Assembly: GCA_005880915.1 (NCBI GenBank) | Contig: VBIW01000040.1 | Span: forward strand, 1-64,000 | Direction of reading: 5' to 3' | Length of the DNA stretch: 64,000 nt | Source: Chloroflexota bacterium | GTDB taxonomy: Bacteria > Chloroflexota > Dormibacteria > Dormibacterales > Dormibacteraceae | Part shown: positions 6,383 to 41,832 of the stretch, in pieces | How the letters are laid out: the number at the start of each line of letters is the position of its first letter | Position numbering within the stretch: position 1 is the stretch's first letter | Program-made: the position numbers and the translations under genes | The notes under the pieces: generated by a model | What the model was told of the DNA's origin: nothing | The model's input: only the letters and a program-made list of their open reading frames with translations | Database searches by the model: none

Positions 6383-7336
6383 TTAGGCCAGGAACTCGAT
6401 CTCCTCGGCGGTGCCGCGCTTGCGCGCCGCCGCGACGATCACCGAGGCCGCCGCCAGGTCCCAGATCGCCAGGCCATGTGACTCGAACAGGGTGATGCCC
6501 GGCCGCTCCGGCCGCTCCCAGCGGCCGGCCACAACCGAGCCAAGCTCCACCGCCTGGCTCCAGTCGAATCTTCCGGCCTCATGCGCCTGGATCAGGTCGC
6601 CGCTCTCGAGCTGGGCGGCGGCCAGCTGGTCGACGACCACCGTCTGGGCTCGCTCGACGAGGTCCGCCGGGACCTCAACCCGGTTGCGGAAGTTCGACCC
6701 GACCGCCACGACGAGGGCGTGCGGCTCGACCCACGCGGCCTCGACCACGGGCAGATGGCTCGTGGTCACCGTGACGACGATGTCAGCACCGCGCACCGCG
6801 GCCTCGGCCGTGGGCGAGTCGACCGTCTTGATGCCGAGCTGGTCCGCCTGCTCCGTGGCAAAGGCCGCCCGGCGCTCTGCGTTCCGGCTGAAGACACGCA
6901 GCTCGTCGACCTCCAGCACGCGCGTCAGCGCCAGGGCCTGAGTGGAAGCCTGCCAGCCGCAACCGACCAGCGCGATGGTTGCCTTGGCGGGCAGGCCGAG
7001 CGCCTTCACGGCGACCGCCGTGGCGGCGCCGGTCCGGTACGCGCCCATGAAGTCGGCCTCGACGAGCGCCTCGACAGACCCGTCCAGCCCGAACAGCACG
7101 ACTATGAACCGGACCCGTCCATTGGCCACCGTGTACGCCTTGAGCCCGGTGCACTTGCCGCCCGGCCATGAGGCGAACATCACGTTCAGGAGGCTGCCCG
7201 GCGCGAATGCCCGGCGCCGGGGCTCGTTTTGGGCCTCGCCCTCGCCCAGCTCGCGCATCGCCGCTTCGACGGCGGCGATCACGTCGTCCATCTCGATCAG
7301 CTCTTGTACGTCACTCTCGCGCAGGATCAGGGCCAT
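6383..7336 (-). CDS. Ornithine cyclodeaminase / mu-crystallin family dehydrogenase
   Basis: A 317-residue NAD(P)-dependent enzyme of the OCD/mu-crystallin family. Members include ornithine cyclodeaminase, alanine dehydrogenase and ketimine reductase. Visible features are the N-terminal MALILRESDVQELIEMDDVI, the substrate-binding GLKAYTV region, and a Rossmann nucleotide-binding turn ALVGCGWQASTQAL followed by a NAD-loop VFSRNAERR. The ATG at 7336 is chosen because family homology begins there; the upstream extension reads into a repeat. TATTCT lies 7 nt before this ATG on the same strand (complement 7344-7349), so the mRNA is probably leaderless. The precise substrate cannot be read from the sequence. 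Confidence 0.82.
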   Translation of the reverse strand: MALILRESDVQELIEMDDVIAAVEAAMRELGEGEAQNEPRRRAFAPGSLLNVMFASWPGGKCTGLKAYTVANGRVRFIVVLFGLDGSVEALVEADFMGAYRTGAATAVAVKALGLPAKATIALVGCGWQASTQALALTRVLEVDELRVFSRNAERRAAFATEQADQLGIKTVDSPTAEAAVRGADIVVTVTTSHLPVVEAAWVEPHALVVAVGSNFRNRVEVPADLVERAQTVVVDQLAAAQLESGDLIQAHEAGRFDWSQAVELGSVVAGRWERPERPGITLFESHGLAIWDLAAASVIVAAARKRGTAEEIEFLA

Positions 7337-7360
7337 CGCAGGGAGAATAGCTGCCAAAGA

Positions 7361-7549
7361 TGTCACGCCCCCGAAGGTCCTTGCATCTTCGCGCCCTAGG
7401 CGGCCGGGCGCCTTCGGCGCTGAAGCCTGCGTCAAGGGGCCCGGCGCGGCGTTGTCGCGCATTTAACGATGCGCTCCTAGCCGCGCCACCCTTTCCTTGG
7501 CTCCGTCCGCCGATGGCGCGAATATGCTGCGCAGCTCGGGGGCGTGACA
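7361..7549 (+). repeat. Copy A of a ~190-bp intergenic element with private terminal inverted repeats
   Basis: The ends are a perfect 14-bp inverted repeat, TGTCACGCCCCCGA at 7361-7374 and its complement at 7536-7549. The ~160-bp core recurs in reverse orientation at 14889-15086 with about 17 differences by eye. Core hairpins are conserved (GCGCC-TTC-GGCGC; GCAT-loop-ATGC). It lies between the divergent OCD and hom genes and ends 5 nt before the hom ATG. A reading frame is shared by both copies, but this follows from nucleotide identity and I do not call it a gene. Confidence 0.75.
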
Positions 7550-7554
7550 TCTAG

Positions 7555-8847
7555 ATGTCGACAACCCGCCCGCTTAACGTCGGCCTGATCGGTCTCGGCA
7601 CCGTCGGCTCGCAGGTTGCCGAGCGCATGTTGTCGTGGGGGCCGCAGCTGTCGCGGCGGGCCGGAGTCGAGCTCTGCCTGAAGCGCGTGCTCGTCCGCGA
7701 CCTCACGAAGCGCCGCTCGATCGAGGTCGCCGCCGACCTCCTGACGACCGACCCGTCCGCGATCCTCGACGACAGATCGATTGAGGTCGTGATCGAGGTC
7801 GCAGGCGGCGACGAGCCCATGCGGTCCTACATCGAGCGCGCGATCCTGGCGGGCAAGCACGTGATCACTGCCAATAAGGTGGTGATGGCGAAGCACGGCC
7901 CCGAGCTTCTCGATCAGGCGGCCGGGAAAAATGTCGACGTCTACTTCGAGGCTGCGGTTGGGGGTGGCATTCCGCTCATCAGCACCTTCCGCATGGATCT
8001 GCAGGCCAACAAGATCGAGCGCGTATCGGCTGTCATCAATGGGACGACCAACTACGTCCTCGGCCGTATGGCTTCGGGCAGCACAATGACCGACGCCATC
8101 CGAGAGGCGCAGGAGGCCGGCTACGCCGAGGCCGACCCCACCGACGACATCGGCGGCTTCGACGCCGCCTACAAGCTCGCGATTCTCGGGTCGATTGCGT
8201 ACGAGATCAAGGTCCGGCCTGACGAGATCTATCGCGAGGGCATCGAGGGCGTGGAGCCGGTCGACTTCCGTTACGCGCGCGAGCTCGGTTTCGCGATCAA
8301 GCTCATCGCGCACACGCAGCGCCATCCGGGCAGGGTCGAGGCCCGCGTCCACCCGGCGATGATTCCGCTCGACCATCCGCTGGCCCGCGTTGAAGGCGCG
8401 GAGAACGCCGTGTTCGTGGAAGGCGACCTGGTCGGGCAGGTGCTGCTCGTCGGACAGGGTGCGGGGGGCAGGCCCACAGCATCTGCCGTGGTCGGCGACC
8501 TCATCGACCTGGCCCGGTCGATACGGCGTGGCGTGCAGAGCCGCCCCTCGTTCAGCTTCGACGACCGGATCGGCGTGATCCCGATCGGTGAGGTGAAGAC
8601 GCGGGCCTACTACCGGATCCGGGTCGACGACCGCGCGGGCGTGCTGGCCGCGATCGGCCAGGTCTTCGCCGAGGAAGGTGTCAGCATCTCCAGCTTCATT
8701 CAGAAGGACGCGTGGTCGCACGACCAGACCGCGGAGCTTGTGGTGACGACCCACCCTTCGCTGGACGCGAGCCTCCAGAGGGCGCGTGAGCGGATGGCGC
8801 AGCTCGAGCCGGTCCGCACCGTGTCGTCTTTCCTGCGCGTCTTTTAG
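7555..8847 (+). CDS. hom: Homoserine dehydrogenase
   Basis: Reduces aspartate semialdehyde to homoserine with NAD(P)H, at the branch point to threonine and methionine. It is 430 residues, the usual length of the single-function bacterial enzyme. The Rossmann motif GLIGLGTVGSQV is at residues 10-21; the catalytic domain carries ANKVVMAKHG, AAVGGGIPLI and NGTTNYVLGRM. A C-terminal ACT domain at about 345-425 (AYYRIRVDDRAGVLAAIGQV) is the likely threonine-feedback site. It is the first gene of a hom-thrC-thrB-lysC-ychF run with near-zero spacing. The ATG lies just downstream of the repeat element; TATGCT at 7523-7528 inside the element could be its -10. Confidence 0.95.
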   Translation: MSTTRPLNVGLIGLGTVGSQVAERMLSWGPQLSRRAGVELCLKRVLVRDLTKRRSIEVAADLLTTDPSAILDDRSIEVVIEVAGGDEPMRSYIERAILAGKHVITANKVVMAKHGPELLDQAAGKNVDVYFEAAVGGGIPLISTFRMDLQANKIERVSAVINGTTNYVLGRMASGSTMTDAIREAQEAGYAEADPTDDIGGFDAAYKLAILGSIAYEIKVRPDEIYREGIEGVEPVDFRYARELGFAIKLIAHTQRHPGRVEARVHPAMIPLDHPLARVEGAENAVFVEGDLVGQVLLVGQGAGGRPTASAVVGDLIDLARSIRRGVQSRPSFSFDDRIGVIPIGEVKTRAYYRIRVDDRAGVLAAIGQVFAEEGVSISSFIQKDAWSHDQTAELVVTTHPSLDASLQRARERMAQLEPVRTVSSFLRVF

Positions 8848-8857
8848 GGCGTGCAGC

Positions 8858-9928
8858 TTGGGTGTGATAGCTCGCTATCGCGAGCGCCTGCCGATCGGGC
8901 CGGCGACGCCCGAGGTCGACCTCAACGAGGGCTCGACACCCCTCGTGCGGAGCCACAACATCGGCCGCGCTCTCGGACTCGAGCGTCTGTACTTCAAGTA
9001 CGAAGGACTCAACCCGACCGGTTCATTCAAAGACCGCGGCATGGTCGTCGCGGTTGCGAAGGCGCTCGAGAAGGGAAGCCGCGTCTTCATGTGCGCATCA
9101 ACCGGCAACACGTCGGCGTCGATGGCCGCATATGCGGCGCGGGTCGGTGCGCGTGCGATCGTCGTGGTCCCGAATGGCGCCGGGCGCGCGCGGGGCGCAC
9201 CTCCTGAGATCGCGTTGAACAAGTTGTCGCAGGCTTTGATGTACGGAGCGAAGGTGGTGGCGCTCCAGGGCAACTTCGACCACGCGCTCGAGACGGTTCG
9301 CGACGTGACGAGCAACTATCCGGTCGCGTTGATGAACTCCGTCAACCCGCATCGAATCGAGGGCCAGAAGACAGCTGCGTTCGAAATCATCGACGAGCTC
9401 GGCGATGCGCCCGACTACCTCGTCCTGCCAGTCGGCAACGCCGGCAACATCACCGCCTACTGGAAGGGATTTCGCGAGTATCACGCGGCCGGACGCGCAG
9501 CGCGGCTGCCGCGCATGGTCGGCGCCCAGGCGGAGGGCGCTGCCCCGATCGTCAACGGAGCAGCGGTCGCCAATCCTAAGACGGTCGCCTCTGCGATCCG
9601 GATCGGCAACCCCGCCTCGTGGGAAGGCGCCACGACGGCGCGTGACGAGTCAGGCGGCACCATCGCCGCGGTGACCGACACCGAGATCCTGTCCGCCCAG
9701 ATCCGGCTTGCCAACAGCGAGGGGTTGTTCGCCGAGCCGGCGTCGGCGGCGCCACTCGCGCTCCTGTTCCGCCTCGTGCGCGAGGGCAAGATTCAGAGGG
9801 ACTCGACGACGGTGGTTGTGCTGACCGGATCCGGCCTCAAAGATCCGGACGCCGCGCTGCAGAACGTCGAGCCGCCCATCGAGCACGACGGTGATGCCCG
9901 CACACTCGCTAAGGTCTTGAAGCTGTAA
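8858..9928 (+). CDS. thrC: Threonine synthase
   Basis: PLP enzyme converting O-phosphohomoserine to threonine, about 356 residues, matching the short (actinobacterial/Bacillus-type) ThrC class. The PLP lysine is in GLNPTGSFKDRGM (near residue 59); the phosphate-binding loop is LPVGNAGNITAYWKG. Family homology begins at IARYRERLPIG. I chose the TTG at 8858 because AGGG lies 8 nt before it; the GTG at 8864 is the alternative. It starts 10 nt after hom and is followed directly by thrB, consistent with one operon. Confidence 0.93.
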   Translation: MGVIARYRERLPIGPATPEVDLNEGSTPLVRSHNIGRALGLERLYFKYEGLNPTGSFKDRGMVVAVAKALEKGSRVFMCASTGNTSASMAAYAARVGARAIVVVPNGAGRARGAPPEIALNKLSQALMYGAKVVALQGNFDHALETVRDVTSNYPVALMNSVNPHRIEGQKTAAFEIIDELGDAPDYLVLPVGNAGNITAYWKGFREYHAAGRAARLPRMVGAQAEGAAPIVNGAAVANPKTVASAIRIGNPASWEGATTARDESGGTIAAVTDTEILSAQIRLANSEGLFAEPASAAPLALLFRLVREGKIQRDSTTVVVLTGSGLKDPDAALQNVEPPIEHDGDARTLAKVLKL

Positions 9929-10741
9929 GTGCGCGTCAAAGTCCCGGCCTCGATCGCCAACATCGGCCCCGGTTTCGACTGCATGGCCATGACGATCGAC
10001 CTGTGGCTCGAGGTCATCGCAACCGAGTCGGATCGGCCGGCCTGGGACTACGAGGGCGAGGGCGCCGACTACCTGTACGCTCACGAGAACCCGTTCACCC
10101 GCCTGCATATGAGGGGCCGCGTCCGGAGCGAGATACCGCTCGGCGTCGGCCTGGGCAGCAGCGCCGCGGCGAGGCTCGCCGCGTCGGCGCTGATGAGTCC
10201 GTGGGACGTGAAGAGCCACGTGGTCGACGCGGGTGCCGACGAAGGCCACTACGACAACGTGGCGGCAGCGGCGTCGGGCGGGATCCGGATCGTCTCCGAG
10301 AAGGTGGACGAGAAGCTGCCCAACCCCGGCTGGGGACTCGCCCTCTTCATCGCGCACCAGCCCCTGCCGACCGAAAAGGCGCGCCAGGTATTGCCTGACT
10401 CGGTGTCCCTCGCCGATGCGACCTTCAACGCTTCGCGCACAGCCCTGCTGGTGCGCGCGATCATGTCGAAGCGCCCCGCGCTGTTGGGCGAGGCGCTGCG
10501 CGACCGGCTGCATCAGCCGCACCGCCTCCACCTTTATCCATGGGTTGAGGAGGTGATCCATGTGGCAGAGGCGGCCGGTGCCTATGGCGCGGCGATCTGC
10601 GGCGCCGGTCCGAGCGTCTTCGCGTTCTGCGCACCTTCGCAGGCGGCCAGGATCGCCAGGGCGATGGAAGATTCGCATCCGCTGCGCGGGCGCGCGCTGG
10701 TGACGAAGATCTCCGACAAGGGCATGTTCCGCACGTTGTGA
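9929..10741 (+). CDS. thrB: Homoserine kinase (short form)
   Basis: GHMP kinase phosphorylating homoserine for ThrC. It starts at GTG immediately after the thrC TAA. The N-terminus VKVPASIANIGPGFDCMAM is typical; the ATP loop is PLGVGLGSSAAARLA and the C-terminal signature is GAAICGAGPSVFAF. At 270 residues it is about 20-30 shorter than usual: the segment between the first domain and the glycine-rich loop is contracted. The usual GHPDN motif reads GHYDN. Gene order and the intact ATP loop support function. Its last codons overlap lysC by 4 nt (GTGA). Confidence 0.9.
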   Translation: MRVKVPASIANIGPGFDCMAMTIDLWLEVIATESDRPAWDYEGEGADYLYAHENPFTRLHMRGRVRSEIPLGVGLGSSAAARLAASALMSPWDVKSHVVDAGADEGHYDNVAAAASGGIRIVSEKVDEKLPNPGWGLALFIAHQPLPTEKARQVLPDSVSLADATFNASRTALLVRAIMSKRPALLGEALRDRLHQPHRLHLYPWVEEVIHVAEAAGAYGAAICGAGPSVFAFCAPSQAARIARAMEDSHPLRGRALVTKISDKGMFRTL

Positions 10742-11955
10742 TCGTCCAGAAGTACGGAGGTACCTCCGTCGGCTCGGCCGCCCGCATCCGCCGCGTCAGC
10801 CGCCGCATCGCAGATACCGTCGCTCAGGGACACCAGGTCGTCGTCGTGGTGTCGGCGATGGGTCACACGACGGATCGCCTGATCGCCCTGGCCGAAAGCG
10901 TCAACCCCGAGCCGCCGGCGCGCGAGCTCGACATGCTCGTCGCCAACGGCGAGACGATCACCGCGCCACTCGTCGCAATGTGCCTGGCCGGGATGGGCGT
11001 GCCGGCGGTCTCACTCTCCGGCGCCCAAGCCGGCGTCCGTACCAGCGGGCAGCACTCGCGAGCTCGCATTCATGACATCAAGCCGGACCGCATCGTCGAG
11101 ACTCTGGGCAAGAACCAGGTTCCGGTCATTGCCGGGTTTCAGGGCGTGACGGATGAGCTCGAGATCACGACCCTCGGACGCGGCGGCTCGGACACCACTG
11201 CGGTCGCTCTGGCCGCGGCGCTCGGCGCGGAAACCTGTGAGATCTACACCGACGTCGACGGCATCTTCACGGCGGATCCTAGAGTCGTGAAGGCAGCGAA
11301 AAAGCTGACTCACATCCAGTACGACGAGATGCTCGAGCTGGCCGCGGTCGGCGCGCGCGTCCTGCATCCTCGCGCGGTCGAGATCGCAGAGCTCTACGGC
11401 GTCCCGATCCACGTTCGGTCGAGCTTCCACGACCGCGTCGGTACGATGATCGTCGCTCACGTACCAATGGAAGATCGCCAACGCGTGCGCGGCATCGCGC
11501 AGGAAACCAACGTCGCGAAGATAACCGTGGTCGGCGTTCGTGACCGCCCCGGCGTCGCGGCGTCCATCTTCGAGCCGCTCGCCGATGCGGGCATCTCGGT
11601 CGACGTCATCGTCCAGAACATCGGCCGCTCAGGTCACACCGATCTCACCTTCTCGGTCGCCGCGTCCGACTTGAAGGCAGCGGAGAAGCTGGTCAAGACC
11701 GCCGCCAAGGCCGTGGGCGCACAGCGTGTCTCATCCGCGGCCGGCATTGCGAAGCTCTCCATCGTGGGCACCGGCATGCTCGGCACCCCGGGCATCGCGG
11801 CCCGGATGTTTCGGGCCCTGGCTGAGGCCGGGATAAACATCGAGATGATCAGCACCTCCGAGATCCGAATCACGTGCCTGGTCTCCCGCGACCAGGTCGA
11901 CAAAGGAGTGCGGATCCTGCACCACGCATTCGAGCTCGACCAGGACCTGGCTTAG
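10738..11955 (+). CDS. lysC: Aspartate kinase
   Basis: Phosphorylates aspartate, the first step of lysine, threonine and methionine synthesis. It is 405 residues from a GTG that overlaps the thrB stop (GTGA). The kinase domain has IVQKYGGTSVGSAARI at the start, GFQGVTDELEITTLGRGGSD, and EIYTDVDGIFTADPR. Two C-terminal ACT repeats (about 265-405; VRDRPGVAASIFEPLADAGI and VGTGMLGTPGIAARMFRALA) form the allosteric regulatory domain. Placing this entry enzyme behind hom-thrC-thrB ties the whole branch to one transcript. Confidence 0.95.
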   Translation: MIVQKYGGTSVGSAARIRRVSRRIADTVAQGHQVVVVVSAMGHTTDRLIALAESVNPEPPARELDMLVANGETITAPLVAMCLAGMGVPAVSLSGAQAGVRTSGQHSRARIHDIKPDRIVETLGKNQVPVIAGFQGVTDELEITTLGRGGSDTTAVALAAALGAETCEIYTDVDGIFTADPRVVKAAKKLTHIQYDEMLELAAVGARVLHPRAVEIAELYGVPIHVRSSFHDRVGTMIVAHVPMEDRQRVRGIAQETNVAKITVVGVRDRPGVAASIFEPLADAGISVDVIVQNIGRSGHTDLTFSVAASDLKAAEKLVKTAAKAVGAQRVSSAAGIAKLSIVGTGMLGTPGIAARMFRALAEAGINIEMISTSEIRITCLVSRDQVDKGVRILHHAFELDQDLA

Positions 11956-12969
11956 TTGCCCGTCAATGTGGCGATCGTCGGCCCCGCGGGGGCCGGCAAG
12001 ACGGCGCTGTTCAACGCCCTGACCTCAGGCCGGGGTGCGGATGGCGTGGGCATGGTGGACATCCCCGACGAACGCCTCACGCGGCTGGCGGAAGCGGTCA
12101 AGCCGGCCAAGACCACTCCCGCCCAGGTCCGGGTCGAGGACTCGCCGCCGGGGAGCCGCGCCCAGCGCGTCGCGTTCGCGCGCCAGGCCGACGTGCTGCT
12201 CAAGGTGGCCCGGTGCTTCGGCCCGGACCCTCAGCCCGCAGCGGAGCTCGAAGAGTTCGCCCTCGACCTGGTGCTCGCCGACCTGGCCTCAGTGGAAAAG
12301 CGTCTCGATGTCGTGGCAAAAGAGGCACGCGCGGGCAAGAAGGATGCGCAGGAAGAGACGGAGGTTCTCACCGCCGCGAAGCAACACCTCGACGCCGGCA
12401 AGCAGCTGCGCACGCTGCCGCTCGAACCAGACCAGCGCGCCATCCTGCTCGGCATCTTTCCCGTCACGCTGAAGCCCGCGGTCTACGTGGCCAACGTCGC
12501 GGAAGAGCTGCTGCCCGGTGGGGGCGAGGCGGCCGCCAAGGTCAAAGTGCTCGCCGGCGACGAGGAGGCCCCATCGCTCGTTCTGTCGGCGCGGCTCGAG
12601 GCTGAGCTCGCCGAGCTCGAGCCGGGCGAGCAGGCCGAGATGCGCGCCGGCTATGGGATCGACGAGTCCGGGCTCGGCCGGATCGCGCGGGCGGTGTGGG
12701 AGGTGGGCGGCCTCATCACGTACTTCACCGCGGGCGAACCGGAGGCACGAGCCTGGCCCTGCGAACGCGACGCGCCGGCTCCTGTGGCCGCGGCGAAGAT
12801 CCATACAGATTTCGAGAAGCACTTCATCCGCGCCGAGGTGACATCGGTCGACGAGCTCGTTGCAGCCGGCTCGATGGACGCTCTGCGCGCCGCCGGCAAG
12901 CTGCGCATAGAAGGTCGTGAATACCGGGTCAAGGACGGCGACGTGGTCTTCTTCCGAATCGGACGCTGA
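11956..12969 (+). CDS. YchF/OLA1-like P-loop protein with degenerate GTPase motifs
   Basis: A 337-residue protein starting at TTG directly after lysC. The C-terminal half is clearly YchF: SGLGRIARAVWEVGGLITYFTAGEPEARAW and the TGS-type end IHTDFEKHFIRAEV followed by YRVKDGDVVFFRIGR. The N-terminal domain is altered: G1 reads GPAGAGKT instead of GxPNVGKS. The stretch that normally carries the G3 motif DIAGLVKGASxGEGLGNxFL is replaced by EDSPPGSRAQRVAFARQA, so the DxxG is missing. GMVDIPDERLTRLAEAVKPAKTTPA is retained. Nucleotide binding may persist but catalysis is likely changed. It is the last gene of the thr operon. Confidence 0.8.
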   Translation: MPVNVAIVGPAGAGKTALFNALTSGRGADGVGMVDIPDERLTRLAEAVKPAKTTPAQVRVEDSPPGSRAQRVAFARQADVLLKVARCFGPDPQPAAELEEFALDLVLADLASVEKRLDVVAKEARAGKKDAQEETEVLTAAKQHLDAGKQLRTLPLEPDQRAILLGIFPVTLKPAVYVANVAEELLPGGGEAAAKVKVLAGDEEAPSLVLSARLEAELAELEPGEQAEMRAGYGIDESGLGRIARAVWEVGGLITYFTAGEPEARAWPCERDAPAPVAAAKIHTDFEKHFIRAEVTSVDELVAAGSMDALRAAGKLRIEGREYRVKDGDVVFFRIGR

Positions 12970-12971
12970 GC

Positions 12972-13379
12972 TCAGGACACCCCGTAGGCCTGCCGCGTCT
13001 GGCGCCGCAATAGAAAGACCAGGACCGGGATCCCCACCACGAGGAGCGACCACGCGCCGGCCACGATCACCGCGGTGATCCATCCCCAGATCCGCAGCCT
13101 TTTCAGGCCGTAGTACGCGGTGCCGTGCAGCACCACCGCAGCGATCTCGAAAAAGAACACGATCCCGACGTACAGAACCAGCATCGAGGACGCGTTGCGT
13201 GTGAGCCCGGCATTGATCAGCGCGTGCTGGAGCTGGTCGCGCCCGACCGGTGCCGCGACCATCGCAGACCACTGCGTGAGCTGGACCAACCAGAAAATCG
13301 CGCCGGCCGCGAACAGGTAAGGGAGCCATTTGAGGTACCGGCTGGGCGCCGGTTGGTTGGGTGGCCGCGATGTGCTCAA
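12972..13379 (-). CDS. Small multi-pass membrane protein of unknown function
   Basis: 135 residues, start TTG at 13379. Three hydrophobic segments are visible: about 17-34 (LPYLFAAGAIFWLVQL), 66-88 (SMLVLYVGIVFFFEIAAVVL) and 97-122 (IWGWITAVIVAGAWSLLVVGIPVLVFLL). The N-terminal tail is Pro/Ser-rich. No family is recognised. It converges on the ychF-like gene with a 2-bp gap. A dyad CTGTCAA-N5-TTGACAG begins 7 bp upstream of its start and may regulate it. Confidence 0.6.
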   Translation of the reverse strand: MSTSRPPNQPAPSRYLKWLPYLFAAGAIFWLVQLTQWSAMVAAPVGRDQLQHALINAGLTRNASSMLVLYVGIVFFFEIAAVVLHGTAYYGLKRLRIWGWITAVIVAGAWSLLVVGIPVLVFLLRRQTRQAYGVS

Positions 13380-13385
13380 GCTTTT

Positions 13386-13426
13386 CTGTCAAATCTCTTG
13401 ACAGCAACTACATTCGGGGTTATAAC
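13386..13426 (+). promoter_or_regulatory. Consensus-like sigma-70 promoter with overlapping operator-like dyad
   Basis: TTGACA at 13398-13403 and TATAAC at 13421-13426 are separated by exactly 17 bp, the best promoter match I found in the window. The dyad CTGTCAA-N5-TTGACAG at 13386-13404 covers the -35, as a repressor or activator site would. On the plus strand no gene begins until 13829. The dyad also lies just upstream of the minus-strand membrane gene, so it may serve both directions. Confidence 0.6.
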
Positions 13427-13570
13427 TTGCTGCGGGACACAACATATCGTAGCCCACATCCCAGCAGGTTGAGTCCCACGGCCCAACGACAGGCAGGTGG
13501 ACCCCTTCCCAAGTCGCACCCCACGACCCAGCAACAGCTCCCCCACCCGCCTGCCTGTCCTAATCCTCAA

Positions 13571-13798
13571 CTTCACCTCCCCACTCGCTGGGGAGGTCGG
13601 CCCAGACTTCACCTCCCCACTCGCCGGGGAGGTCGGCCCCGGCTTCGCCTCCCCACTGGCTGGGGAGGTCGGCCCAGGCCGCGGAGCGGCCTCGGCCGGG
13701 TGGGGAGCCACGAACTCTCCACTTTCACCTCCCGACTCGCTGGGGAGGTCGGCCCCGGCCGCGAAGCGGCCTCGGCCGGGTGGGGAGCCACGAACTCT
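13571..13798 (+). repeat. Tandem 36-bp hairpin repeats with longer composite units
   Basis: Three adjacent 36-bp units begin at 13571, 13607 and 13643. Each is CTTCACCTCCCCACTCGCTG followed by GGGAGGTCGGCCC plus three bases, forming CCTCCCC-loop-GGGGAGG hairpins. The third continues into a 40-bp tail with GGCCGC-GGA-GCGGCC and GGTGGGGAGCCACGAACTCT. A fourth unit with the same tail ends at 13798. The 449-bp stretch 13380-13828 holds only this array and the promoter. There are no spacers, so it is not CRISPR. The first hairpin belongs to the same family as repeats at 21271, 26811 and 61854. Confidence 0.8.
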
Positions 13799-13828
13799 TT
13801 TTCACCGCTCTCTTAGACTTGCAGATCG

Positions 13829-14197
13829 ATGAGTCGCAAGGGCAAGAAGCGAGCCAAAGGTAAATTCCGCCAGCAGATGCGGCCGGGCCCGCTGACACCG
13901 AGCACGGGCGTCCCGGGCGCGGCGGTCCAGACATCGCCGGCGACGCGGAGCGTTTCCCAGGCGCGCGTCGGCGGCGACCAGGCGATGGTCCGGGCGGTTG
14001 AGCTGTCGCTCGGGGCCAAGAACCAGATGGTCAAGGGGCGCGGCGGCCGCTTCACCGTCGAGTCGAAAGACCCGTCGATCCCCCTCGACCGCGTGCCTTA
14101 CTTCACCAAGGACCTTGTGAGGCTGCTGGTAGTCGGCTCCGCAATGGTCGTCCTGCTCGCGGTCGGCTCAGTAACAGTGCCGCTACTGGTCAAGTAA
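13829..14197 (+). CDS. Small basic protein with C-terminal membrane anchor
   Basis: 122 residues, no family recognised. The N-terminus is strongly basic (MSRKGKKRAKGKFRQQ) and the middle is polar. The only hydrophobic segment is at the very C-terminus (about residues 99-121: LLVVGSAMVVLLAVGSVTVPLLV, one residue before the end). This is the topology of a tail-anchored protein inserted after translation. TAGACT at 13814-13819, 9 nt before the ATG, suggests leaderless transcription. An ArsA/Get3-like ATPase is encoded 0.9 kb downstream. Confidence 0.65.
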   Translation: MSRKGKKRAKGKFRQQMRPGPLTPSTGVPGAAVQTSPATRSVSQARVGGDQAMVRAVELSLGAKNQMVKGRGGRFTVESKDPSIPLDRVPYFTKDLVRLLVVGSAMVVLLAVGSVTVPLLVK

Positions 14198-14200
14198 TCG

Positions 14201-14260
14201 CTTCCCCGCTCAGCGGGGAAGGTGACCGGACGCGAAGCGGCCCGGTCGGATGGGGCGAAG
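14201..14260 (+). repeat. Double-hairpin intergenic repeat
   Basis: CTTCCCCGCTCAGCGGGGAAG forms the first hairpin. A second stem built on GACCGG...CCGGTC follows, then GATGGGGCGAAG. It is the same two-hairpin plan as the CCTCCCC family but with a different first stem. It starts 3 nt after the stop of the preceding gene and may function in transcript ending. Confidence 0.55.
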
Positions 14261-14315
14261 ACGTCGCCAATTGCGTAGACACGGCCCGGCCCAAACCCTA
14301 GAGTTTCCGGTCGCC

Positions 14316-14882
14316 ATGTCAGTTCACACAAGTGACACCGGTCACGCCGCTCTCAAGGAAACTCTGCACCGCCGCAAGTACAGGTCAGACGAGCACAAGC
14401 ATCCCGTCAACGTGGTCCACCACGACGAGGCGACGCTTGGCGAGCGACTGGCCGACAAGATCTCCGCAGGCATCGGCTCATGGCCGTTTCTCATCGTCCA
14501 GACCGTCGCCGTCGGCGTGTGGATGATCGGCAACGCGATCCTCTTCTTCAACTTCGACCCGAAGCCCTTCATCCTCCTGAACTTGCTCTTCTCGATCCAG
14601 GCCGCGTACACGGGCCCCGTTCTGCTGCTCGCCGGCAACCGCCAGTCGCAGAAGGACCGCCTGACCCTCGAGCACGCCGCGCACGAGGCCGACAAGGCGG
14701 ATGACCAGAATGTCCAGATCCTCAAGGCCATCCTCAAAGACACGGACCTGACCGAGAAGAACACAGAGCTGACGCTTCAAATCCTCAAGCACCTGCAGGC
14801 TCAGCTCACCGGGCACCTCGAAGCCGATGCGATCGCAGGCATCAGGCCGAGCGCGGCGCAGGAGCCGACAGGCCGCACGTAA
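14316..14882 (+). CDS. DUF1003 family membrane protein
   Basis: 188 residues. The DUF1003 core is clear: LGERLADKISAGIGSWPFLIVQTVAVGVWM, then FDPKPFILLNLLFSIQAAYTGPVLLLAGNRQSQKDR, giving two transmembrane segments (about 53-72 and 85-107). A charged coiled-coil-like C-terminus follows (DRLTLEHAAHEADKADDQNVQ). The function of the family is not established. TAGAGT at 14299-14304, 11 nt before the ATG, is a likely -10. The next feature downstream is repeat copy B, starting 6 nt after the stop. Confidence 0.85.
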   Translation: MSVHTSDTGHAALKETLHRRKYRSDEHKHPVNVVHHDEATLGERLADKISAGIGSWPFLIVQTVAVGVWMIGNAILFFNFDPKPFILLNLLFSIQAAYTGPVLLLAGNRQSQKDRLTLEHAAHEADKADDQNVQILKAILKDTDLTEKNTELTLQILKHLQAQLTGHLEADAIAGIRPSAAQEPTGRT

Positions 14883-14888
14883 ACTCTC

Positions 14889-15086
14889 GGGAGTGTCGGG
14901 ACTCCGAGAGCCGCAGCAGATCCGCGCCATCGGCCGTCGGAGCCTAGGAAAGGGTGGCGCGGCTAGGAGCGCATCGTTAGATGCGTGACGACGACGCGCC
15001 GGGCCCCTTGACGACGGCTTCAGCGCCGCAGGCGCCCGGCGGCCTAGGGCGCGCAGATGCAAGGATCCTGGAGGCCCGACACTCCC
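14889..15086 (-). repeat. Copy B of the ~190-bp element, inverted relative to copy A
   Basis: The ends are a perfect 12-bp inverted repeat, GGGAGTGTCGGG at 14889-14900 and its complement at 15075-15086. This sequence is different from the ends of copy A. The core matches the reverse complement of 7375-7535 almost throughout. The right end stops 1 nt before the arsA GTG, so the element forms the whole gap between the DUF1003 and arsA genes. Confidence 0.75.
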
Positions 15087-15087
15087 T

Positions 15088-16281
15088 GTGAGAGTAGTTC
15101 TCTTCACCGGCAAGGGCGGCGTGGGCAAGACCTCGGTCGCCGCCGCCACCGCGGTTCGGTGCGCAGCCGCCGGCTACCGCACCCTGATCATGAGCACCGA
15201 TCCTGCGCACTCGCTCGGCGATTCCTTCGACATCGAGCTGGGCACCGACGCCACCATGGTCGCGTCGAACCTGTGGGCGCACGAGGTTTCGTCGCTGCAC
15301 GAGATGCAGCGGCACTGGGTCAAGCTGCACGAGTACGCGGTCGAGGTCTTCTCGACCCAGGGCCTGGACGAGGTGCTGGCGGATGAGGTGGCGAATCCGC
15401 CAGGCATGGACGAGGTCGCGTCCTTGATGTGGATCAAGCACTACGCGCAGCGCGCCGAGCACGACGTGGTAATCGTCGACTGCGCGCCGACGGGTGAGAC
15501 GCTCCAGCTGCTCACGTTCCCCGACGCGGCCAAATGGTGGCTCGACAAGATCTATCCGTGGTCGCGCCGCGCGATGCGCGTGGCACGCCCGGTGCTGCAG
15601 CCGATGATGGGCATGCCGTTGCCGTCAGACGAGGTCTATGCGTCGCTCAAAGACTTGTTGATGGACCTCGACGGCATGCGAAAAGTGCTTACCGATCCTG
15701 AGACCACGACCGTGCGCATCGTGCTCAATCTGGAGAAGATGGTCGTCAAAGAGGCCAAGCGCGCTTATACGTACCTGAGCCTCTTCGGCTATGTGACCGA
15801 TGCAGTGATCGTCAACCGGCTGCTGCCTGGCGAGCTCCATGACGAGCTTTTCCAGAAGTGGCAGCGCATCCACCATCGGTACCAGGTCGAGGTCGAGCAG
15901 TCGTTCGCGGGGATTCCAATCTTCAACGTGCCGCTCTTCGACAGCGAGGTGGTGGGGGAGAAGATGCTGTCTCGCATGGCCGAGGCGATCTACGGAGAAG
16001 AAGACCCTGCGCGGCGTTTCGCAACTTCGAACACCCAGCGCATCGACAAGGACGGGACGGACTACGTCTTGAGCCTCAAGGTGCCGTTCGTTGACAAGTC
16101 GGCCATCGACCTGAGCCGCCACAACGGCGAGCTCTTCGTCACCGTCGGCAACTACCGCCGCGAGATCTCGCTTCCTCGGGTTCTCGCGCGCCGCGAGACA
16201 GCCGGCGCATCGATCGAGGACGGTGAGCTGCACGTCCGGTTCGCCCGGCCCCCGGATAAATCAGGCAAGGCCAAAACGTGA
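15088..16281 (+). CDS. ArsA/Get3-family ATPase with C-terminal HSP20-like domain
   Basis: 397 residues from GTG. The deviant Walker A of the family is at the N-terminus (VVLFTGKGGVGKTSVAAATAV, residues 3-23), the switch I region is STDPAHSLGDSFD, and switch II is VIVDCAPTGETLQLL. There is a single ATPase domain, as in Get3 and bacterial ArsA singletons, so a dimer is expected. The last 80 residues (SLKVPFVDKSAIDLSRHNGELFVTVG) form an alpha-crystallin-like beta domain seen in many bacterial ArsA homologues. No ars operon genes are nearby, so targeting or chaperoning of membrane proteins is as plausible as arsenite efflux. It overlaps the next gene by 4 nt. Confidence 0.88.
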   Translation: MRVVLFTGKGGVGKTSVAAATAVRCAAAGYRTLIMSTDPAHSLGDSFDIELGTDATMVASNLWAHEVSSLHEMQRHWVKLHEYAVEVFSTQGLDEVLADEVANPPGMDEVASLMWIKHYAQRAEHDVVIVDCAPTGETLQLLTFPDAAKWWLDKIYPWSRRAMRVARPVLQPMMGMPLPSDEVYASLKDLLMDLDGMRKVLTDPETTTVRIVLNLEKMVVKEAKRAYTYLSLFGYVTDAVIVNRLLPGELHDELFQKWQRIHHRYQVEVEQSFAGIPIFNVPLFDSEVVGEKMLSRMAEAIYGEEDPARRFATSNTQRIDKDGTDYVLSLKVPFVDKSAIDLSRHNGELFVTVGNYRREISLPRVLARRETAGASIEDGELHVRFARPPDKSGKAKT

Positions 16282-41757: not shown

Positions 41758-41832
41758 TGGGGAGTGGCGCAACGGTAGCGCAGCTGACTCTGGATCAGAA
41801 GGTTGAAGGTTCGAATCCTTCCTCCCCAGCCA
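41758..41832 (+). tRNA. tRNA-Gln (anticodon CTG)
   Basis: The acceptor stem TGGGGAG/CTCCCCA, D-arm GCGC-AACGGTA-GCGC, anticodon loop CTCTGGA with CTG at positions 34-36, T-loop GGTTCGAATCC, discriminator G and an encoded 3' CCA make a complete cloverleaf. It reads codon CAG. It is the only tRNA I find in the window and stands at the edge of a short accessory stretch (small protein, MazEF). Confidence 0.96.

Follow-up and report, generated by a model that had tools for sequence, protein, structure and literature searches.

The ERIC sequences, also called IRU or RU-1, are small non-coding imperfect palindromes that occur between genes in tens of copies and are co-transcribed, and they are tabulated with 7-bp terminal repeats, TA at their ends, and target duplications in the excerpts of PMC2229807 and PMC10969869. 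The BOX, RUP, and SPRITE repeats of the pneumococcus are dispersed hairpin repeats, and BOX is described in the excerpt of PMC3049150 as modular and able to provide the stop codon of the preceding gene. The REPIN/REP elements with RAYT are intergenic, multi-copy repeats in which the whole element forms a hairpin (PMC3116915, in excerpt), and partial accounts of YPAL (RU-2) of Yersinia describe a 168-bp palindromic element without TA ends. Here, we analyzed a comparable repeat, mostly ~190 nt in length, in a 64,000-nt stretch of a Dormibacteraceae genome (Chloroflexota; assembly GCA_005880915.1, contig VBIW01000040.1), referred to in full as the window. A first-pass annotation had claimed twin elements there, and both copies, A and an inverted copy B, were found (Table 1).

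The description that fits the element best is that of a new mobile family of small palindromes lying between genes, similar in kind to ERIC and BOX. On balance, and with considerable reserve, we favor the reading that it is a non-coding, non-autonomous mobile family of Dormibacteria with a strand-folded rod, sited at gene edges and moved as a folded single strand. It differs from ERIC in its private ends, its covarying rods, and the lack of a consistent duplication, neither TA ends nor a target duplication having been found at its ends and empty sites; the sequences of the two were compared via Rfam only. Whereas BOX, RUP, and SPRITE are over-represented between convergent genes, the Dormibacteria element avoids convergent gaps and hugs start codons. 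Unlike REPIN/REP, it consists of a conserved core with variable ends, and no RAYT or Y1 transposase was found in those genomes of the family that carry the element. YPAL is said in the excerpted account to target areas of dyad symmetry and to produce duplications of 3-26 bp, neither of which was seen for the Dormibacteria element.

Covariation and strand-specific folding

To explain a shared core with private but self-complementary ends in copies A and B, the first-pass annotation had offered either a structured element closed by a covarying stem or insertion into pre-existing palindromes; the former held, and the latter failed (see the last section). Across 104 aligned copies, 94.4% of the cells in 58 predicted pairs were standard pairs, and the covariation was strong. 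Both sides had changed in 46 of the 58 pairs. Cells with a double change numbered 490, compared to an average of 93 over 500 shuffles, and this number fell to 49-74 when the partner was slid by 1-3 columns. The outermost pairs occur as A-U, G-C, C-G, and U-A. What looks like private complementary ends is the outer, rapidly changing portion of a single long rod that covaries, and it is through this covariation that two copies share a core yet carry ends of their own. The conserved part is the apical domain or core, and the rod drifts over long times yet remains complementary. For a sister copy, the folding z-scores of the two strands were -8.2 and -10.4, a control that any long inverted repeat would pass.

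The terminal inverted repeats reported for the two copies, TGTCACGCCCCCGA/TCGGGGGCGTGACA and GGGAGTGTCGGG/CCCGACACTCCC, were both exact. They had been called unrelated, but when placed in register GATGTC of copy A and AGTGTC of copy B are variants of one terminal hexamer, and the repeat of copy B appears different because the flanking GG/CC was also included in it. Column counts showed an AGTGTC-like hexamer in most of the 104 copies; apart from it, the ends are not identical in other copies. The ~17 core differences counted by eye agree with BLAST, which gave 91% identity over 154 core bases. A segmental duplication was ruled out, as the flanking genes of the two loci are unrelated.

The rod folds better on one strand, here called F, which is the plus strand of the window at copy B and the minus strand at copy A. 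With RNA parameters, F was the more stable strand in 123 of 126 copies (mean folding energy -131.4 versus -120.2 kcal/mol, a difference of ~11 kcal/mol), and DNA parameters likewise favored it in 123/126. It was also the better-folding strand in all 20 of 20 remote members of the family. Read on the non-F strand, the orientation of the first-pass annotation, and leaving out one pair column, the mismatches comprised 147 A.C versus 49 G.U and 145 pyrimidine-pyrimidine versus 43 purine-purine, and this imbalance was present in every gene context. Together with the stability of F, the lopsided mismatches indicate that constraint acts, or acted, on one folded strand. That strand may be RNA or single-stranded DNA; the data fit both.

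Filled and empty sites at gene edges

We checked 31 copies from four related genomes for the orthologous site in close relatives, and an aligned empty site was found for 27 of them. Among the other four, two had a match only in the more distant genome G016 and two had none; the empty site of copy G000f was located in G010 and not in the sister genome. In one example, the filled site reads CAGACCT, element, AGGTTCC, versus CAGACCTAGGTTCC when empty. In another, GAGTCTA, element, GATGC is matched by GAGTCTGATGC, a difference also encountered within one metagenome-assembled genome (MAG; G010). It was noted separately that the loci L176 and L212 on two contigs of that MAG (G010:C309 and G010:C250) have the site filled and empty at 96% identity, which suggests strain-level polymorphism. 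At the site of copy A, an element is present in G000, G010, and G004 as well as in G047, which belongs to another genus, and at least eleven relatives have an empty site.

The element is thus multi-copy and non-coding with both filled and empty orthologous sites, that is, a miniature inverted-repeat transposable element (MITE) in the broad sense. Constant terminal inverted repeats recognized by a known transposase were not found, the hexamer being AGTGTC-like and the rest of the ends private. The 27 empty/filled pairs showed no consistent target duplication, and a few junction bases often differ. A first impression of a 6-bp duplication at site A (GATGTC on both sides) was dropped, as most other sites do not repeat it. 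A few sites may have a CTAG-type target, and flank preference was weak (T at -3 in 47/95 copies, G at -1 in 50/95, and C at +1 in 50/95).

The copies lie at gene edges almost to the nucleotide, as the annotation had noted for A and B near start codons, with gene calls and starts taken from a codon-usage script. The nearest gene end was within 5 nt in 107/123 copies, compared to 10% of intergenic positions, and the residual intergenic gap was at most 15 nt in 70/123, compared to 1.9% of intergenic bases. Among 126 copies, a set that includes same-site relatives, 62 had a left-hand stop and a right-hand start, with the arrangement inverted in 26; 33 were flanked by two starts and four by two stops, with one undecided. 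Convergent gene pairs accounted for 4/125 copies versus 38/257 gaps. Left-hand stops fell at -5 to +4 in 56/66 cases, and 22 of these are T|AG stops completed by the element. The proteins encoded by 20 adjacent genes belong to unrelated Pfam families and functions, and one of these genes, for an ornithine cyclodeaminase-like (OCD) protein, starts 22 nt from its copy. It was observed that three of the 20 (neighbors of copies G000f, G012c, and G012g) resemble corrinoid methyl-transfer parts (B12-binding, MTTB, and pterin-binding), which may be chance. The idea that folding out of the element restores a Shine-Dalgarno sequence was not supported, since one at the right distance was seen for just 19/92 close starts, with 25 inside the element's end.

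Orientation is tied to transcription context. In the 111 non-redundant copies (15 rows dropped from the 126), a TANNNT box lay 4-8 nt before the element in 18/35 F-sense copies near a start (10/23 and 8/12 in two groups) versus 3/59 F-antisense copies (2/54 and 1/5), a difference with a Fisher p of 3e-7; control windows gave 2/222. The 3-4 nt spacer of F-sense copies begins with CT in 22/29, most often as CTA. In the lineage, TANNNT stands 4-9 nt before the start in 42/274 genes, and such a box before a start is read as a mark of leaderless genes in the excerpt of PMC3160421. On that reading, the spacing indicates that F-sense copies often sit where a leaderless transcript would start. The F-antisense copies are mostly at stop/start junctions inside operons.

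Copies at the same site were also compared across genomes. Ten of 22 same-site pairs were reciprocal best matches among the 126 copies, and in these ten the element was more alike than either flank. Identity at one site was 236/236 with flanks at 89-90%, and 225/236 in a third species with flanks near 81%; further pairs gave 186/193 (flanks 81-84%) and 190/194 (flanks 84-86%). At three same sites, the rod was shared and a module differed: a type 1 versus a type 2 core (G000a/G010f), the apical hairpin (G000c/G012i), and the side hairpin (G010i/G002c). In G006, a copy with the outer stem of G000m and another core lies about 380 bp away.

Family spread and copies in the window

In the window's own genome (4.13 Mb, 228 contigs), a DNA search returned 16 pieces, and a covariance model built from 13 copies of that genome resolved 13 strong full-length copies and three weak ones; the repeat is therefore a multi-copy family beyond the two copies first seen. 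The model matched 37/42 genomes of the same family and, with eight candidates scored per genome, 23/301 genomes sampled across the phylum, of which 15 belong to the family, seven to the same class, and one lies outside the class. Except where copies were listed, per-genome match counts take both strands of a quasi-palindrome and are inflated. An exact 29-base pattern was found on 29 named contigs, every one of which bears the title Chloroflexi bacterium or Candidatus Dormiibacterota. Model matches span 176-256 nt and include variants with a longer side hairpin (~231-236 nt) or a longer apical hairpin (~210-217 nt). Low-scoring matches yielded the 20 remote members (176-195 nt), in which the rods differ and the apical part is similar, five of them from the single genome outside the class. 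These members (L293-L312) form subfamilies whose rods are unrelated and whose apical parts are alike, and they extend as far as a genome from a different class of Chloroflexota.

A side observation concerns three copies of the window's genome (L013, L015, and L010), where a short loop has given way to a ~40-nt side hairpin whose core is CCCCACGAAATCTGCGATTTCGCGGGG. Looked at within elements, this hairpin occurs in only one of two copies at an orthologous site (G010i versus G002c) and resembles a small nested element.

No blastn match to the element was found in plasmid or phage records, and viral contigs held no exact match to one 22-base pattern, a narrow test. Rfam gave no element match at gathering score in the window, and a search of four loci at E up to 10 returned chance-level matches only, outside the element. 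None of the literature matches listed for such elements contains 'dormibacter', which is weak evidence for an undescribed family. A resemblance to HEARO/ATGA is presumed.

Table 1. Copies of the element in the window and the features beside them.
Feature	Position	Strand	Basis
Copy A	7359..7551	- (better-folding F strand)	covariance-model match; 13-copy alignment
Outer arm of copy A (partner 7536-7551)	7359..7374		sequence and covarying pairs
Outer arm of copy A (partner 7359-7374)	7536..7551		sequence and covarying pairs
Apical hairpin of copy A, type 1 core	7457..7474		sequence; helix 10 in pair analysis
Homoserine dehydrogenase gene (hom), ATG at 7555, 3 nt past copy A	7555..8847	+	open reading frame (ORF); Pfam PF00742
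OCD-like gene, divergent	6383..7336	-	ORF; Pfam PF02423; inferred ATG 22 nt from copy A
Copy B	14892..15083	+ (better-folding F strand)	covariance-model match
TAAACT, -10-like hexamer 6 nt upstream of copy B	14880..14885	+	sequence; statistics of class
Gene upstream of copy B, ending 9 nt before it	14250..14882	+	ORF
ArsA-like ATPase gene, GTG at 15088, 4 nt past copy B	15088..16281	+	ORF; Pfam PF02374

The order at copy B is TAAACT, six bases, the element, four bases, and GTG, and the hexamer shares bases 14880-14882 with the TAA stop of the preceding gene. In the relative G012, an identical TAAACT stands six bases before the GTG of the ArsA gene. Elsewhere in the window, an ORF with recurring FTSPLAGEVGP motifs (13497-13832) is probably a short palindromic repeat array and not a protein, and a tRNA gene (41758-41829) is the sole Rfam match at gathering score.

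Mobility, rival readings, and significance

Under the favored reading, the family is non-autonomous, and its folded single strand would be mobilized in trans by an enzyme other than a Y1/RAYT transposase and, on present evidence, other than a reverse transcriptase. Selection for folding of the F strand would keep the arms complementary, and the element would survive best where neither neighboring gene is disturbed. In the F-antisense orientation at an operon junction, its terminal AG often completes the upstream TAG stop; in the F-sense orientation, it often lies where a leaderless transcript would start, with the start codon 3-4 nt behind. From the slow evolution of same-site copies, it may also serve the host, and the data suggest a host role, perhaps as a boundary structure in mRNA, the least supported step of this account.

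Several observations weigh against the favored reading. No mover was found in this analysis, nor did any of the copies examined carry an ORF. Within-genome pairs above 96% identity were absent among the 126 copies, and recent jumps were therefore not caught; patchy occupancy may partly be due to loss. The start of a gene was taken by a simple rule as the outermost candidate codon, which favors short distances and leaves the stops unaffected. Twelve of the 22 same-site pairs were not reciprocal best matches, site A in G000/G010 among them, which fits module exchange or repeated insertion. Among 58 substitutions in six same-site pairs between different species, 25 fell in unpaired bases and 18 pairs were broken, with two base pairs double-changed and kept and 11 changed on one side and kept. 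Pairing between same-site copies is not strictly guarded on the spot.

A further-reaching possibility, to which we give about one chance in five, is a new mobility system in which the hairpin element travels as its F strand and is delivered to gene edges, with copies then becoming conserved parts of operons. At leaderless promoters, host RNA polymerase would start RNA at the first base of the element; at operon junctions, insertion would take place in the opposite, weaker-folding orientation, with the terminal AG completing the upstream stop. The machinery would recognize transcription-start or stop/start junctions together with a folded single strand.

We consider it equally doubtful that the element is a cis-regulatory RNA, riboswitch- or leader-like, in which the F strand would be a sensing 5' leader and the variable closing stem its P1. 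The conserved core with a variable complementary stem, the same-site conservation above the flanks, and the 18/35 F-sense copies behind a -10-like box, from which RNA would start at the element, all fit such a leader. However, 54 of the 111 non-redundant copies lie at operon junctions in the F-antisense orientation, where promoter signals are nearly absent on both sides, and these show an equal strand bias. A riboswitch that is always in sense upstream of related genes was rejected given the 20 unrelated neighbors and the many F-antisense copies; Rfam gave no match at gathering score in the window or below it in four loci, and the corresponding gene of a sister species is often without the element.

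Movement at the RNA level, with F-strand RNA from a captured leaderless promoter as the transposition intermediate, was judged somewhat less probable still. It draws on the same -10-like boxes and on strand-specific folding tolerant of G.U and G.A. Yet the DNA parameters give an equal strand bias, so RNA is not required, and RVT_1 exceeded the cut-off in only 8/42 family genomes, the window's own genome not among them, which also leaves a group II intron or other reverse-transcriptase-borne element without its enzyme there. Neither RVT_1 nor Y1 tracks the copy number of the element across the family. On a par with it in our estimate, and likewise improbable, is a plain decaying selfish MITE whose inserted copies are under no selection. 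The patchy presence, the unrelated neighboring genes, and the broken pairs between same-site copies speak for it; the ten reciprocal-best same-site pairs that are more alike than either flank speak against it.

That the element is a REPIN/REP repeat moved by a RAYT (Y1 transposase) is very unlikely. It is intergenic, multi-copy, a single hairpin, and has no clear target duplication, but a Pfam search of the MAGs found Y1_Tnp (PF01797) in one of 42 family genomes, G042, itself without an element match, and the conserved part is the core and not the ends. Insertion into pre-existing palindromes, which has the appearance of copies A and B in its favor, can practically be set aside, as the longest perfect stem at the 27 empty junctions averaged 4.07 bp versus 4.00 bp in shuffled sequence. 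Arms shared words with their own empty sites of mean length 5.22 (maximum 8), and arms of other copies gave 5.11 (maximum 9) at the same sites, showing no excess. Ends templated by the target were also rejected, since in 95 copies (nine of the 104 dropped) flank columns were uninformative on the element, the top value of 0.258 lying within the 0.221-0.346 range of 20 permutation maxima.

The Dormibacteria element adds a case of a small mobile repeat that is positioned at gene edges with nucleotide precision and whose orientation is tied to transcription context, in a host lineage without the Y1/RAYT enzymes that usually move such repeats. Should RNA-seq data bear out the gene-edge rule, both the movement and the host retention of palindromic repeats would become testable through many filled and empty pairs.

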